This document shows, piece after piece, positions 20,500 through 38,716 of a stretch of DNA of 43,588 nucleotides. Positions within the stretch are counted from its first letter, which is position 1, and each line of letters begins with the position of its first letter. Origin of the DNA: a virus. The stretch spans positions 1-43,588 of the IMG/VR virus record IMGVR_UViG_3300048592_001331. The stretch is one strand, 5' to 3'. The translations under genes and the position numbers were made by a program. Below the pieces are notes generated by a model. The model made no database searches, was not told the DNA's origin, and saw nothing but the letters and a program-made list of their open reading frames with translations.

Positions 20500-20816
20500 T
20501 CATCCACGGAATTCCAAACCACCCGTTTTTTTATATCATTCAGCCGCCATCCGCTCAACTCTACAGCGAGCGTGTTCAGCCACAGAACCCCGGGTTCGTA
20601 AAGCCGGTGCTCGATTTTAAGGATCCGCGCACCGGGCAAACATGGAAAGCTGAATTATGGGATGTGCTGCGTATTGACTTGTACCGTATTCCAGACCATA
20701 TGTGCCGTGCAGCTTATGGCGCCAACTCAAACGCGGTGGTTCCAATGCTCGAACAACGTTACCCCGAAGTAAGGACCAAAAAAGAAATAGAATTTCTGCA
20801 GCTAAAAAAACTATGA
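20496..20816 (+). CDS. Hypothetical protein coupled to the primase gene
   Basis: A 106-residue soluble protein with no recognised domain. It overlaps the ASCH gene upstream and the primase-helicase start downstream, both by 4 bp. That placement suggests a replication accessory factor, but the sequence itself offers no motif. Confidence 0.55.
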   Translation: MIIHGIPNHPFFYIIQPPSAQLYSERVQPQNPGFVKPVLDFKDPRTGQTWKAELWDVLRIDLYRIPDHMCRAAYGANSNAVVPMLEQRYPEVRTKKEIEFLQLKKL

Positions 20817-23800
20817 GATACATCGACCAAAACGAACTTTTCAGAGCTACCAACAATGGGCTCGACGTGTTTGAGCATTATTTCCCTGCCGAAAACCTGC
20901 GTAACCCAAAGCACTATTTTAAAGAGCGTGCCGGCGAAAAAACACCCAGTACGCGGGTTTACTGGTACAATGGCCTTTACCTGATTACCGACTACGGTAA
21001 CCAGGACGAAGTTAACGGGATGAATGCCGTAAAATATGTGATGTATCGCGAAGGGTTGCAGTACATTGATGCATTGCGCTACATTGAAGAGGTTGTGGTT
21101 GGCCGTAAGGTTACCAGCGAAGGTTTTTACCGGCCTAAGTATGCCCCCGATTACAAGGTGCGCGATATGAAACCCGACGACAAAAAAGGCGAGTACAAGT
21201 TTGTTTATAAAGAAAAACCTGCAGAAACCGACCTTGCAGCCATTGGCCGCTATGTTACTGCCGAACATCTGGAAACTTACCACGGCAAATCGGTTGAACG
21301 TTACGACTATTGCGGGTACAGCAACAAACAAAATAAGGATGTGGTACATACTTTTATTGCTACCCAGGATTACCCCATTTTTGTTTTCGATTACGGAACC
21401 TTTAAAAAACTTTATAAACCATACGACCCCGAGAAAAAGAACCGCTTCCTGTACATTGGCGAAAAACCAAAAGACTTTATTTATGGCCTTGAGCAGATTA
21501 AAGCAGCCAAATGCGAATTTACCGAAGAGGATGAAAACGGTAAAGATGCCATAAAACTGCCCGAAGGAAAACCCGATGCCCGGGTAAAAGACCTTTTCCG
21601 TTGCTCGGGCGAAAGCGATGCGCTTAACCTGTTCAGCATAGGTTGCCGCCCGTACTGGTTAAACTCTGAAAGCGCCGATTACCTTCCCGGCCAGTTTACC
21701 GAAGTTGATAACCTTTGCCAGAACCACTACCAGGTAATGGATTTGGATGCCACCGGGCGCAAACATGCCACTAAACAGGCCCTTCAACACATGAACCTGG
21801 CCACCATTGAACTACCCGAATGGCTCATGTTTAAAAAAGATTTCAGGGGTAACCCGTGTAAGGACCTGAAAGACTTTATTAACATATCGGGTACCGATGC
21901 CGAAAGTACTTACTGGAATTTTATGGCTTTGAAACGAAAAGCCAAAACTGCCAAATTCTGGGTAAAAATTGAAGATAAAAACGGTAAATCGAGTTATAAC
22001 ATCAGCCTCGAACATTTATACTGGTTTCTGCAGCTCAGCGGTTTTTACCGGGTAGAAAGCATTTACCATAAAAAAGCCGGTTACTCTTATGCCCACATCG
22101 AGGGGAAAATAGTGAAGCTGATAAACCCCGACCACATAAAACGAATTGTAAAACACACCATCAAAGAATATGTGAAAAGCAAAAATGTGATGGACGAAAT
22201 TACTATCCTGAATAAAATTAACAGCAGCGCTCAAATTAGCGAAGCCAACCTGCAGGATCTTCCGGAAACAACTCTGACCTTTAAAAACTACACATCAACC
22301 AGCGAAGTACTCAACTTTAAAAACCTGAGTATTAAAATTACCCGCGACGAAATTTCAAAAATAAAACACGAAGATTTGCCCAACTACATTATGGGCGAAC
22401 TGAAGCTCGAAAAACAAACCATTTCGCACATTATCGATCACACATTTCAGTTGGTGAAGGAACCGTTGCTGGAAGTTGATCCAACACCCGAATTTAAAAT
22501 ACTGCTAGATAAGCTGGATAAGGCTAAAACCGATATCGAACGCGACAATGCCAATGCCGAGATTTCACGCTTTCCGGAATTGGATAAATACACCCTTAAA
22601 ATAAGGGATAAGGATTTTATATTTATCCGCTTCCTGCAGGACCTTTCACACATACACTGGAGAAAAGAGCTGGAGCATAAGGAAGCGCTTACAAAAAAAG
22701 AGGAAAAAGAACAGGAGCAGGCATTTATAAACCTGCTTTATATACTGGGGTACCATTGCAGCCAGTTTAAACACAAAGCAAAACCTTGGATTTCGTTTTT
22801 GCAGGATATGCGCATAAGTGAAATTGGGCAGAGCAGTGGGCGAAGCGGGAAAAGTTTAATTTTTACTGCAGTTGAATTTGTAAGGGCTACCTTCCATATT
22901 CCGGGGCGAACGCTCGATGATAAAAACGAGTTTAAGTTTATTTACGATGGGCTCACCGAATTCCACGATTTTATTAATGTTGACGATTTTAACGAGCGGG
23001 GCCTTTTTGATATGTTCTATACTGAGGCAACCGGAAAGCGTAATATAAACCCCAAGAACCTGAGCGCCCATTCGCTCTCGTACGAAGACAGCGGTAAAAT
23101 GGGAATAACCAGCAATTTCGAACTGCCAAAACAGGACAGCAGTACAGTTGCACGTTTGCTCAATGGCGGTGTGAGCGATTTTTACCACGAACGCACAAAG
23201 AGTAACAATTACAACGAAACCCGCACACCCTTAACAAGGTTTGGCCGCCGTTTATACGATGATTTTAACAGCCACGAGTGGAATCAGTTTTATAATGTAA
23301 TTGCTTACGCCATACAATTGTACCTGCGTTTCGATAAAATACAGCCACCGATGGAGAACCTGGAGAAACGGCAGGCACGCCGCGAAATGGCCTCGGGATT
23401 GGGCCGCGACGAAGAGTTTTTCCACTGGGCCAACCACTATTTCCAAACTTGTAAGATTGGTGAAACGCCCGAATATTCAGATGCTGATGTTGGTTATTTT
23501 AACACCTACATCATCAGGGAAAATGCATTTGAAAACTTTAAACAGATATTAAGCGACAGCCAAAAGAAAACCTATAAAAGCAACAAGTTTAAAACCCACC
23601 TGGTTGCATTTTGCGAATACTACGGGTACAAGTTTAACCCTCCTGAATTGTGCGTGGGTGGTGAGTCGGAAGGGTCGCGCCGAATAATGAGATCTATTGA
23701 CGGCAAAACCCGCGAGTGCTTTTACATCAGCACCTCGCCGCAACTCCCCCTGCCCCCCGGTGATAATGAAATTGAAAATGCAATTAGTAATGCACCGGCC

Positions 23801-23827
23801 AGTAAGGATGCTGATATGCCGTTTTAA
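20813..23827 (+). CDS. Primase-helicase fusion protein
   Basis: A 1004-residue protein from the ATG at 20813 (4-bp overlap with the preceding stop). Residues ~1-95 resemble the DnaG-type CHC2 zinc region (KTPSTRVYWYNGLYLITDYG, then NAVKYVMYREGLQYIDALRY) but lack its cysteines. Residues ~260-340 look TOPRIM-like (CSGESDALNLFSIG, then VMDLDATGRKHATKQAL). A superfamily-3/P4-like helicase region follows with the P-loop GQSSGRSGKS (~671-680) and INVDDF downstream as a possible Walker B. The last residues, DADMPF, imitate the acidic tip of single-strand binding proteins. It is probably the phage replicative primase and helicase. Confidence 0.8.
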   Translation: MRYIDQNELFRATNNGLDVFEHYFPAENLRNPKHYFKERAGEKTPSTRVYWYNGLYLITDYGNQDEVNGMNAVKYVMYREGLQYIDALRYIEEVVVGRKVTSEGFYRPKYAPDYKVRDMKPDDKKGEYKFVYKEKPAETDLAAIGRYVTAEHLETYHGKSVERYDYCGYSNKQNKDVVHTFIATQDYPIFVFDYGTFKKLYKPYDPEKKNRFLYIGEKPKDFIYGLEQIKAAKCEFTEEDENGKDAIKLPEGKPDARVKDLFRCSGESDALNLFSIGCRPYWLNSESADYLPGQFTEVDNLCQNHYQVMDLDATGRKHATKQALQHMNLATIELPEWLMFKKDFRGNPCKDLKDFINISGTDAESTYWNFMALKRKAKTAKFWVKIEDKNGKSSYNISLEHLYWFLQLSGFYRVESIYHKKAGYSYAHIEGKIVKLINPDHIKRIVKHTIKEYVKSKNVMDEITILNKINSSAQISEANLQDLPETTLTFKNYTSTSEVLNFKNLSIKITRDEISKIKHEDLPNYIMGELKLEKQTISHIIDHTFQLVKEPLLEVDPTPEFKILLDKLDKAKTDIERDNANAEISRFPELDKYTLKIRDKDFIFIRFLQDLSHIHWRKELEHKEALTKKEEKEQEQAFINLLYILGYHCSQFKHKAKPWISFLQDMRISEIGQSSGRSGKSLIFTAVEFVRATFHIPGRTLDDKNEFKFIYDGLTEFHDFINVDDFNERGLFDMFYTEATGKRNINPKNLSAHSLSYEDSGKMGITSNFELPKQDSSTVARLLNGGVSDFYHERTKSNNYNETRTPLTRFGRRLYDDFNSHEWNQFYNVIAYAIQLYLRFDKIQPPMENLEKRQARREMASGLGRDEEFFHWANHYFQTCKIGETPEYSDADVGYFNTYIIRENAFENFKQILSDSQKKTYKSNKFKTHLVAFCEYYGYKFNPPELCVGGESEGSRRIMRSIDGKTRECFYISTSPQLPLPPGDNEIENAISNAPASKDADMPF

Positions 23828-24450: not shown

Positions 24451-24753
24451 ATGAAAACACTGGAGAAATTTATTGCATGGTCCGTATGTGCCTCAGTTTC
24501 CATTTTTGCAAATGGTTATGTGATAATGAAAATTTGGGGTTGGTTTATAGTGCCAGTGTTTCAACAACCGTCGTTACAGTTTGCTGAATCTTTGGGTTTA
24601 ATGATACTAACCAGGTTCTTAACTTACTCTGGAGTAAATAAGCCTGCAGAAACAAAAAAAACAACCGATATCATTAGGGAACAAACATTGGAAACCGTTT
24701 TAAAAGCAGGGTTTATCCTCTTAATATCATATATAGTCAGCTTGTTTATTTAA
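24451..24753 (+). CDS. Small membrane protein
   Basis: A 100-residue protein with three hydrophobic segments (about residues 8-30, 40-60 and 80-98), ending ILLISYIVSLFI, and charged loops. It has no signal-peptidase site. It lies between early genes without a lysis partner. Membrane proteins in this position are often superinfection-exclusion or phage-host interface factors, which here is inference only. An AT-rich repeat-like leader precedes the start. Confidence 0.6.
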   Translation: MKTLEKFIAWSVCASVSIFANGYVIMKIWGWFIVPVFQQPSLQFAESLGLMILTRFLTYSGVNKPAETKKTTDIIREQTLETVLKAGFILLISYIVSLFI

Positions 24754-25544: not shown

Positions 25545-25574
25545 TGAAGATGGTAAGGGATGAACTACTATGAA

Positions 25575-25690
25575 TTTTTATTTTGGGCGTGCTCCCGATA
25601 AATCGGGACCGGGCTATTCGTTGCAAGTCCTCATTGCATTGCGGGCTTTCCACTGCTATCCCTCACGCGAAGAAATGCAACTTTTAAGTT
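25575..25690. repeat. Bacteroidota-type interspersed repeat fragment
   Basis: GGGCGTGCTCCCGATAAATCG-type sequence with the palindrome TCCCGAT-AA-ATCGGGA (25593-25608), followed by GGGCTATTCG, GCGGGCTTTCCACTGCTATC and CCTCACG. From memory this resembles a dispersed Bacteroidota intergenic element, which I cannot verify here. An open frame runs through it, but the repeat character argues that the N-terminal part of that frame is not a real protein. Confidence 0.45.
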
Positions 25691-25749
25691 GTAGAAGCGT
25701 GAATTACGAATTAAGATTTATTAAAAACACCAATAAAAAAAGTTTTGGA

Positions 25750-25932
25750 ATGGATTTAACAGCAAACGAAATATTACAGGAAAACAACATTGAATCTATA
25801 AAAATTGGCTATTGTAAATACAATCTAAGATTTAATGGAAAAGAAATTTTAAGACCTGAAAACCCACGCAATTGTTATCAGCTTTTAAAAGATGAATTTG
25901 GTATAGATGAACCGCGTTTTAAAAAATTTTGA
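25750..25932 (+). CDS. Hypothetical small early protein
   Basis: A 60-residue protein from the ATG at 25750. Longer starts would include the upstream repeat element and are rejected. The text (MDLTANEILQENNIESIKIG, then YNLRFNGKEIL) looks like a natural small alpha/beta protein. No family is recognised. It closes the early gene run before a long non-coding region. Confidence 0.5.
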   Translation: MDLTANEILQENNIESIKIGYCKYNLRFNGKEILRPENPRNCYQLLKDEFGIDEPRFKKF

Positions 25933-26086: not shown

Positions 26087-26157
26087 CTCCATATATTTTC
26101 CCCTTTTTACAGATAACATTAATAAAAACCATTTTTACAGAAATCCATTTTTCTGTT

Positions 26158-26165
26158 TACTTTTG
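26158..26165 (+). promoter_or_regulatory. Bacteroidota -7 promoter box
   Basis: TACTTTTG matches TAnnTTTG exactly and lies 5 bases before the first base of the large structured RNA element that starts at 26170. The -33 region is T-rich but has no exact TTTG. Confidence 0.6.
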
Positions 26166-26169
26166 CTAT

Positions 26170-26305
26170 GCACAAACAACATAAACCCGGAACAGGGAGT
26201 TTACTGAACAATTGGGTAGCTACTTGAGCCGCATCAGGTAAACTCCTGTTTTAACTTTCGGGTATAAATTGGTTGTTTGTGCAAGCCTGGCGGCTCATTT
26301 TTTTT
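26170..26305 (+). ncRNA. Candidate pseudoknotted regulatory RNA
   Basis: Three nested helices can form. P1 is GCACAAACAAC with GTTGTTTGTGC (26170-26180 / 26272-26282, 11 bp). P2 is ACCCG with CGGGT (26185-26189 / 26259-26263). P3 is a 13-bp helix with one bulged G (26191-26204 / 26238-26250; AACAGG-G-AGTTTAC with GTAAACTCCTGTT). The 33-nt apical loop contains TGAGCCGC (26225-26232), exactly complementary to GCGGCTCA (26290-26297) just before a run of eight T residues, so the 3' tail can dock into the loop as a pseudoknot. The left arm of P1 recurs as a direct copy at 26309-26319, next to the start of the following gene. Confidence 0.6.
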
Positions 26306-26320
26306 AAAGCACAAACAACC

Positions 26321-26530
26321 ATGGAACAGCACATTGCCATTTACAGCATCGGGAGCCAGAACCTTACACAAACTATTTCGTTGCTTTACGAAGTTTATCT
26401 GAAAACCGGCCAATACCCGGAAAAAATTGTTTCAGGCGATTCTACATACCGGTGGGATAAAACACTTGCACATAAGCTGGCCACCAATGCCATAAACGAG
26501 CAAGAGTACACCCACGCCTGCAAATATTAA
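26321..26530 (+). CDS. Hypothetical protein downstream of the structured RNA
   Basis: A 69-residue protein from the ATG at 26321. An earlier in-frame start would run back into the RNA hairpin and is rejected. Text such as IYSIGSQNLTQTISLLYEVY, then YPEKIVSGDSTYRWDKTL, appears to be a genuine small globular protein, without a recognised family. It lies alone between two non-coding regions. Its start codon follows directly on the third copy of GCACAAACAAC, so the RNA element is probably its leader. Confidence 0.55.
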   Translation: MEQHIAIYSIGSQNLTQTISLLYEVYLKTGQYPEKIVSGDSTYRWDKTLAHKLATNAINEQEYTHACKY

Positions 26531-26724: not shown

Positions 26725-26882
26725 GGGGTGGTTTAAAACAATCGTCGAAGACACCATCTACAATACTGCCATTACATACTTCTATCAAAAAGCCGATATA
26801 ATTAGCAAAATGCCACTTTTTAATTTTTTTCGTTTGGCCTGTTTTTGCTTCCCCCTCTCCCCCTTTCTTTTTTTATAAAAAA

Positions 26883-27210
26883 TTTGTAATTTAGAAATAA
26901 TCAGTTATAAAAGTCTAAGGATTAGATTTTTACAGAATTACAAATTTATTGCAAATTTTAAGCGATTTTGTAATTTTCAAAATTTGTAATTTTTACCTGA
27001 ACACTGAAAAAGGCATAATTTCAAAAATTACAAAATTTTGTAATGATTTGCAATTTTTGAAATAATTGTATATCAGTATATTATAAATCTATTACAAATT
27101 TAGAAACAGGTTGAAATTGAATTTGCAATTTTGTAATTGATTGTAAATTAATTACTTAACATAGTTATTATGATGAAAATTACAAATTTTGCCAAAAATC
27201 GTTGCAATTT
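26883..27210. repeat. Iteron-like array of TTTGTAAT / ATTACAAA sites
   Basis: The exact 8-mer TTTGTAAT occurs at 26883, 26967, 26983, 27037 and 27130. Its inverse ATTACAAA occurs at 26937, 27027, 27091 and 27179. The one-base variants TTTGCAAT/ATTGCAAA occur at 26948, 27047 and 27122, and GTTGCAAT near 27201. Two sites fuse into the perfect 18-bp palindrome ATTACAAAATTTTGTAAT (27027-27044). There is no open reading frame. It could be an origin of replication, a partition centre or a multi-site operator at the early/late boundary. Confidence 0.65.
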
Positions 27211-27440: not shown

Positions 27441-27989
27441 ATGACACAACCGGCCAAAAACCAATTGTATTTAAAGGTACATCCCTACCTGTGGGAGTTT
27501 TACAGGGGTTATTACGGCAGCGAGATAATCGATGTAAAAGATAATCCTCTTTTATCGCTGCGCATTAAATCGATTCTGCAAACAAGGGCCGAAAGTCATT
27601 ACCGCCGTAAATGGTCCGATTTCAGGATAATAGTATTAAACCTTCCGTACTTTCAGGTTGGAAACAAACGGATTAATGTTGCCTGCAGAAAACATTTAGA
27701 CGATCACAGGCAATTTTTGATCAGCCAGGAGCTCTATCAGGATTTTAAAAACATGTTTTTAAACTTTGTTTTGGGTTACGTAAAAAATGGAGGATTACAG
27801 GCAGATGCCATAAGGGATTTCTGTGATTTTTACAATTTTGAAATGAACCAGGTGAAAACCGAAAGCCTGAAAAAAATGTGGGACCGCAGCGCCCTTAAGC
27901 AAAAATGGAATATCGAAAGGGGAGTGTTAAAAGATGTTAAATTAAGGCCTTTGAAAATTACGGGCGTGTCCCCAAGTGTAGTGCAGTAA
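27441..27989 (+). CDS. Hypothetical protein at the head of the late operon
   Basis: A 182-residue basic protein rich in Lys, Arg, Tyr and Phe (NQLYLKVHPYLWEFYRGYYG, then LQTRAESHYRRKWSDFRIIV, ending WNIERGVLKDVKLRPLKI). The spacing of basic residues suggests nucleic-acid binding, possibly a late-gene regulator or a homologue of a small replication protein. No domain is recognised. It is directly downstream of the site array, which makes it a candidate binder of those sites (inference). Confidence 0.6.
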   Translation: MTQPAKNQLYLKVHPYLWEFYRGYYGSEIIDVKDNPLLSLRIKSILQTRAESHYRRKWSDFRIIVLNLPYFQVGNKRINVACRKHLDDHRQFLISQELYQDFKNMFLNFVLGYVKNGGLQADAIRDFCDFYNFEMNQVKTESLKKMWDRSALKQKWNIERGVLKDVKLRPLKITGVSPSVVQ

Positions 27990-38150: not shown

Positions 38151-38716
38151 AGACAAAAATAATTCTAAATAGCTATTTTAAATAGTTGATTTACCATGCG
38201 TTAAATATTAAACCGGACACTTTTTTCTTGCAAAGAAAAAAGTGGGCAAAAAAGAAGCTGAACCCATTCGCTGTTTGTCTTGCCAATATTAATAGTCGCG
38301 AATGGGACGTTTTGGGGCCCCGCTTTGCGCCCAAAACTTTCTGATGTTCTTTTCTCTTTTATGATTTCGGTAAAAGATAAAAGAACCAAAAGAGAAAGCC
38401 GCCTGCTGTGCACTCCCTAAATCCATTGCCGGGCATGGATTATCAGAACGGAAATGCGTTGGATGTTTTTTTGCGAAACTCCGGTTTTTAAACTTCCCCG
38501 CATGGCAGTACTGTAACCCCACCGGCCGGGTTCTTGTAAACTTCAACATATGGACTTCGATTGATTGTGAATTTTACAGCGCACTTTCAAGACTGTGCGG
38601 ACATGCCGGAACCTGGAACCCTTTTTCATGGTTTTCCCTGTGGCCAGTTTTCGTGTAATTTTTTTGACTTAATATCTGCTAAGGTGACAGCCCGTTTCAG
38701 GGTGCGCGTTGCCATA

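Follow-up and report, generated by a model that had tools for sequence, protein, structure and literature searches.

What is the element that stands ahead of a lone small gene between the two gene blocks of this phage, and would it work as an RNA? The stretch that we analysed as a whole, called the window here, is an IMG/VR contig of 43.6 kb with an integrase and a repressor-like gene on the minus strand. Its early block ends at 25932 and its late genes begin at 27441, and the element sits between the two blocks. Among the window proteins a head-maturation protease is identifiable, and so is the terminase, which matches terminases of phages in tblastn; the majority of the scanned proteins gave no family. 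Bacteroidota phages are abundant in the gut, the mouth and the sea, and to our knowledge their regulatory RNAs are poorly charted. The original prediction had read the element as a promoter-driven, pseudoknotted RNA with a second pairing at the start codon, either a cis-regulatory RNA or a phage sRNA of a class that it did not recognise. Comparison of sequences supports this reading, as the layout recurs with compensated sequences at the loci of homologous small genes.

Structure of the element in the window

The features are collected in Table 1. The TAnnTTTG box is where it had been noted, ahead of the outer stem P1, although the gap is 3 nt and not 5, and P1 has 12 bp (26169-26180 with 26272-26283) where 11 had been counted. 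The 5-bp middle stem and the 13-bp inner stem of the original prediction are P2 and P3, the latter with one bulged G, and the complement between eight loop bases and a tail that ends on eight Ts was confirmed. The repeat of the left arm before the start codon is real as well, and the right arm can pair with this third copy over 13 bp (26270-26282 with 26309-26321), as had been foreseen. The P1 arm has no other exact target within the window. When we folded 26169-26308, the z score was -4.9 and none of 200 shuffles was equally stable.

Table 1. Features of the element in the window and at two loci with homologues of the small gene
Locus	Feature	Coordinates	Strand	Sequence	Pairing, basis or comment
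Window	-7 box (TAnnTTTG)	26158..26165	+	TACTTTTG	Bacteroidota-type promoter
Window	P1 5' arm (outer stem), copy 1 of the triple	26169..26180	+		repeat and fold tools; covariation in relatives
Window	P2 left	26185..26189	+	ACCCG	pairs with 26259-26263
Window	P3 left, 13 bp, bulged G26196	26191..26204	+		pairs with 26238-26250
Window	Pseudoknot, loop side	26225..26232	+	TGAGCCGC	corresponding pairing co-varies in subtype A
Window	P3 right	26238..26250	+		sequence reading and fold
Window	P2 right	26259..26263	+	CGGGT	sequence reading and fold
Window	P1 3' arm	26270..26283	+		partner 26169-26180 or 26309-26321; three-way covariation in relatives
Window	Pseudoknot, tail side	26290..26297	+	GCGGCTCA	pairs with 26225-26232, 8 bp
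Window	T8 run directly 3' of the pseudoknot arm	26298..26305	+		probable terminator or pause
Window	Third copy, anti-start site, abuts ATG 26321	26309..26320	+	GCACAAACAACC	repeat tools; member table
Window	Small gene, 69 aa	26321..26530	+		family common to some relative phages
L028	Box			TATCTTTG	
L028	P1 arms			GCGACATAAACAAT / ATTGTTGTGTCGC	
L028	Pseudoknot			GGGCTGTG / CACAGCCC	before TTATTTT
L028	Third copy at start			GCGACACAACATG	
L027	Box			TACCTTTG	
L027	P1 arms			GCTAAAG/CTTTAGC	
L027	Pseudoknot			CGGTGTG/CACACCG	before TTTCTTTT

On its own, TAnnTTTG occurs 42 times in the window against 55.6 expected and is not above chance, and no clear -33 TTTG lies ahead of the box. In 19 of the 20 members of the class that we tabulated, a box with at most one deviation from TAnnTTTG stands 3-4 nt before P1, and no box with two deviations occurs among the members scored. 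At the other end, a simple scan found no canonical hairpin terminator, and no GC-rich local hairpin of the intrinsic type was detected before the U-run; the GC-rich helix in that position is supplied by the pseudoknot rather than by a hairpin.

Two other features of the window lie close by. At 26870-27210, between the early and late genes, inverted and direct repeats (TTTGTAATT/AATTACAAA) form an AT-rich array, which may be a replication origin or a set of regulator sites. It is also present in many of the loci L004-L024 and in L131, L114 and L149, keeps its position in most relatives, and has different units in some of them (TTTGTAACC, TTGACGC). Inside the ORF 25570-25932, at 25595-25690, a block of ~60 nt (CGTGCTCCCGATAAATCGGGACCGGGCTATTCG...) recurs in unrelated surroundings in phage L022 (97% identity) and in MT837256 (85%).

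Relatives and the extent of the class

Searching by DNA similarity with the window element gave nothing in phage records, and the 69-aa protein found nothing in phage records and no close relatives in viral contigs. We used the primase-like protein encoded at 20702-23827 as bait, which gave 21 relative loci. When their records were searched at the protein level, three (L026, L027 and L028) proved to contain distant homologues of the small gene, and in two of the three, L027 and L028, the same layout lies directly upstream of the gene in other letters (Table 1). The third copy is absent in L027, and in L026 the homologous gene follows closely on another one and lacks a leader of this kind. In L031-L033, which are closely related to L028, the stems have two-sided changes and the apical core is almost unchanged, and two further homologues of the small gene found by HMM, in L157 and L054, likewise carry the leader. 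Among the loci found through proteins, the layout is thus present in four diverged sequence groups (L027; L028/L031/L033; L157; L054), one of them without the third copy. The stems and the loop-tail complementarity expected by the original prediction are kept in these homologues, and the copy at the start codon in most, each time with compensated sequences. The arms differ sharply among close relatives, yet all three copies agree.

For wider coverage we scanned the relatives with a descriptor that combined the box, P1, a pseudoknot next to a T-run and the third copy. Together with the annotated phages below, about 20 distinct forms were found in Bacteroidota phages, including environmental ones. 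A whole-genome scan of annotated phages places the element at 24538 in Polaribacter phage Leef_1. Cellulophaga phage Ingeline has it at 38152-38310 (MT732435), with the annotated gene Ingeline1_46 starting within the third copy, and all of Ingeline_1 to _8 carry it. In the Porphyromonas gingivalis prophage BK068109 it is at 2998, and DNA similarity matched this element in 18 P. gingivalis phage records, of which 14 were examined. A strict scan gave 21 matches in 4.0 Mb of real sequence (both strands), a count that includes some redundant matches and three repeat arrays. The same scan had no match in shuffled relatives (15.8 Mb), which were made from the same sequence pool with a few loci shortened, or in 0.8 Mb of a Bacteroides chromosome (both strands). 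With both controls empty, chance falls far short of explaining the combined layout. The three arrays (L114, L149, L150) consist of TTGACGC repeats and are not members, and neither are several loose matches, which are TTTGTAACC arrays.

Spacing within the 20 members is regular. P1 follows the box after 3-4 nt and its 5' arm lies at position 11-12 from the box, each in 19 of the 20; the linker from P1 to the pseudoknot is 1-13 nt, the pseudoknot has 6-10 bp, and a T-rich run (6-9 T in 12 bases) comes straight after its arm in all 20. Where present, the third copy is 10-17 nt long. In 19 of the 20 the start codon is inside or beside it, at -2/-1 or at +9 to +20 from its first base, and the remaining member has no third copy. 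The window itself has the box 3-4 nt before P1, the pseudoknot abutting the T-run and the third copy at the start. Members found by the scanner were selected for the features that are counted here, so the weight rests on the members free of structure-based selection, namely those found through proteins and the P. gingivalis prophages found by plain DNA similarity, and on column-wise counts.

The apical core differs from subtype to subtype. Subtype A (L030 at 1357-1500, L157, L054, L096) shares a core that hardly varies, GAGYATGGGTGNAAGTCCC, and that includes a T-loop-like hairpin (GGG-UGNAAGU-CCC), and subtype B (L144, L164, L105, L152, L170) has an additional hairpin with a T run. A model built from a single sequence (R1) barely scored L028, and a covariance model of subtype A (R2) found neither the window nor the other subtypes. 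These failures across subtypes mean that the class is held together by layout and not by sequence. The common descent of all subtypes is therefore putative. Running the small-protein HMM, the core pattern and model R2 against 395 Bacteroidota genomes returned nothing, in a scan flagged as uninformative. An exact-arm pattern run on genome contigs had a single chance match within a Bacteroides histidine kinase (L025).

No Rfam family accounts for the element. The comparison with Rfam that had been suggested found no match to it: Rfam 15 families gave none in the window and nine other loci at gathering thresholds, nor in L030-L034 at E up to 5, and a Flavo-1 match in L160 falls outside the element. 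Judged against Rfam 15 and the open-access literature, the RNA family is apparently undescribed. We considered a cobalamin riboswitch for the GGUGAAAGUCC of subtype A and rejected it, as there is no Rfam match and the T-loop-like hairpin, which is also seen in a tRNA-like stretch of L080, explains the likeness. Coding sequence as the cause of core conservation in L030-L033 was rejected too, as the reading frame shifts between relatives. In L080, an unrelated virus contig, the string GAGCATGGGTGCAAGTCCC lies in this stretch at ~10031 on the minus strand, with further tRNA-like sequences next to it.

The 69-aa protein of the small gene behind the leader has no Pfam or PHROG match; AlphaFold2 predicts a confident small fold (mean pLDDT 88.6), for which Foldseek searches of PDB and BFVD gave nothing significant. 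The leader is not tied to this gene, as unrelated genes follow it elsewhere. Members stand before other genes in L084, L096, L105, L107, L144, L147, L152, L160 and L164, and since the proteins behind the RNA (65-257 aa) are mostly unrelated, this looks like a general leader. The same fact bears on whether the RNA could be an antitoxin of type III or of the AbiF/RCd22 type, which would neutralise the encoded protein while the terminator sets the ratio of RNA to protein. In RCd22-abiF of the Clostridioides difficile phage phi027, a promoter, an RNA of ~130 nt and a terminator precede a gene on the read-through transcript, with transcription starting ~160 nt before the ATG (PMC12373285). The layout here is alike and the window gene is small and lone. 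However, RCd22-abiF has an ordinary hairpin terminator and repeated abiF motifs (PMC12373285), whereas we find a pseudoknot by the U-run, an arm in three copies and no Abi_2. Nor did the Pfam, PHROG and fold searches match the 69-aa protein to ToxN/AbiQ, CptN, TenpN or any other toxin family, and an antitoxin leaves the copy at the start codon unexplained. With downstream proteins this varied as well, we consider an antitoxin improbable.

For several genes of these phages the annotated start seems to fall within the RNA, and such annotations deserve to be re-examined. Annotated genes begin within the leader at BK068109 3033-3554, at MT732473 24539-24991 and at others, and a start at the third copy is likelier for them than the annotated one. 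In one P. gingivalis prophage (L172, BK068110) two elements stand in tandem at 385 and 733, with different arm sequences.

Covariation of the two alternative pairings

Nine P. gingivalis elements could be aligned almost without gaps. For P1, P2 and the pseudoknot together, all 234 of 234 cells are paired, and 8 pairs (27 cells) are changed on both sides. The covariation is 0.331 compared with 0.131 shuffled, a value reached by none of 500 shuffles, and pairing falls to 27-50% when the arms are slid. All of these two-sided changes are in P1 and P2; the pseudoknot columns are invariant in this group and neither support nor refute the pseudoknot there.

The anti-start helix, counted alone, has 90 of 90 cells paired with 14 two-sided changes, and its covariation is 0.461 compared with 0.164 shuffled (0 of 500), which bears out the second pairing of the original prediction. 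In a second sequence group 50 of 50 cells are paired, with 5 two-sided changes. Since the counts for P1 and for the anti-start helix both show two-sided changes, the 3' arm varies in step with both of its partners. The partner on the start side is probably protein-coding in the P. gingivalis prophages: codons 2-4 of the gene vary together with the 3' arm (MSYT, MPYT, MHST etc.) and the next codons are nearly constant.

Evidence for the pseudoknot comes from subtype A, in which both it and P1 co-vary. The pseudoknots GGGCUGUG, GGGCCGUG and GGGUAGUG and their matching tails are 100% paired, with two pairs changed on both sides, and between subtypes the pseudoknot sequence is wholly different. 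Both mutually exclusive pairings, one of them hiding the start, are thus present in the window and co-varying in relatives, and we regard the RNA and its alternative pairings as well supported at the level of sequence.

The same counts bear on whether the element could act as DNA, for instance as a set of three operators for a phage regulator or as a single-stranded site that folds. Repeats at a promoter and at a gene start would suit operators, and these phages commonly have repeat arrays of a different kind. But operators need neither P2 nor the subtype-A pseudoknot to co-vary, each phage has arms of its own, a T-run stands behind the pseudoknot every time and the position of the third copy with respect to the start codon is kept. 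An element acting as DNA is therefore very improbable to us, the least probable of the readings that we weighed.

A possible mechanism and its meaning

We believe that the element is probably a self-contained, cis-acting leader with its own promoter, running ~135 nt to the U-run and regulating the gene directly behind it. P1 would form first during transcription and leave the start codon open. The tail would then dock into the apical loop, and the resulting pseudoknot helix beside the U-run would stop RNA polymerase or make it pause, so that the usual product would be a short RNA with the gene off. If P1 failed, the 3' arm would take the third copy and hide the start codon, and stray read-through mRNA would be silent too. 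The gene would be made only if polymerase passed the U-run while P1 held, for example when a factor on the apical loop blocked docking. Control of termination by docking of the tail, as the original prediction had it, is something that we infer, and we put forward the termination, the direction of the switch and its trigger in the same sense. The anti-start duplex is computed to be the stabler one in 12 of 18 members, in common cases owing to a wobble or bulge in P1 at a place where pairing with the third copy is perfect. This would fit a P1 that forms by virtue of being transcribed first. In the other 6 of 18, P1 is at least as stable, which counts against the reading.

An exchange of this kind resembles translational riboswitches and attenuators, in which a strand of the closing stem alternatively sequesters the gene start, and subtype A has a conserved apical core, including the T-loop-like hairpin. 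In contrast to riboswitches, the apical core here differs by subtype, and there is no metabolic gene, no known ligand and no Rfam match.

The main rival to a cis-acting leader is action in trans. The C4 RNA of phages P1 and P7 and the CI RNA of phage P4 (seqA/seqB/seqC) are complementary to two places on a transcript, one of them at a gene start. By analogy, the terminated RNA would open P1 and its 3' arm would bind the third copy on read-through mRNA or on the mRNA of an incoming related phage, as an antisense or immunity RNA. The likeness is considerable: in each case a phage RNA comes from its target's own promoter, and here a single strand complements two direct copies that its own transcript carries, one of which lies at the start codon. 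P1 is often weaker than the intermolecular duplex, and arms that diverge between close relatives while the three copies agree are what one would see in a specificity element. However, the pairing strand is locked in a closing stem of 7-16 bp and not exposed in a loop, and the pseudoknot tail abuts the U-run. The promoter here is of the Bacteroidota type, the downstream genes are varied, and many copies are located outside the repressor region and the immunity locus, e.g. near the terminase. The C4 antisense RNA, listed in PMC2864571, has an Rfam model (RF01695), which had no match at gathering in the whole window, nor any on 26100-26400 when E values up to 10 were allowed. Weighing these points, we think that action in trans is rather unlikely, and we continue to prefer the cis-acting leader.

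More broadly, and tentatively, the element may represent an undescribed and widespread class of Bacteroidota-phage RNA, in which a pseudoknot provides the terminator helix, one strand swaps between the 5' end and the start codon, and the whole serves as a portable switch before unrelated genes with a pairing code particular to each phage, possibly also acting in trans as an immunity RNA. As a leader with a host-type promoter is present in isolated phages (Ingeline, Leef_1) and in P. gingivalis prophages, the question can be tested at once. If this reading is true, it would show the hiding of start codons as a means of translation control in hosts that rely little on Shine-Dalgarno sequences, and it would be a rare example of a probable pseudoknot terminator. 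It would also mean that many small phage genes are under tight control, which would make them worth assaying.
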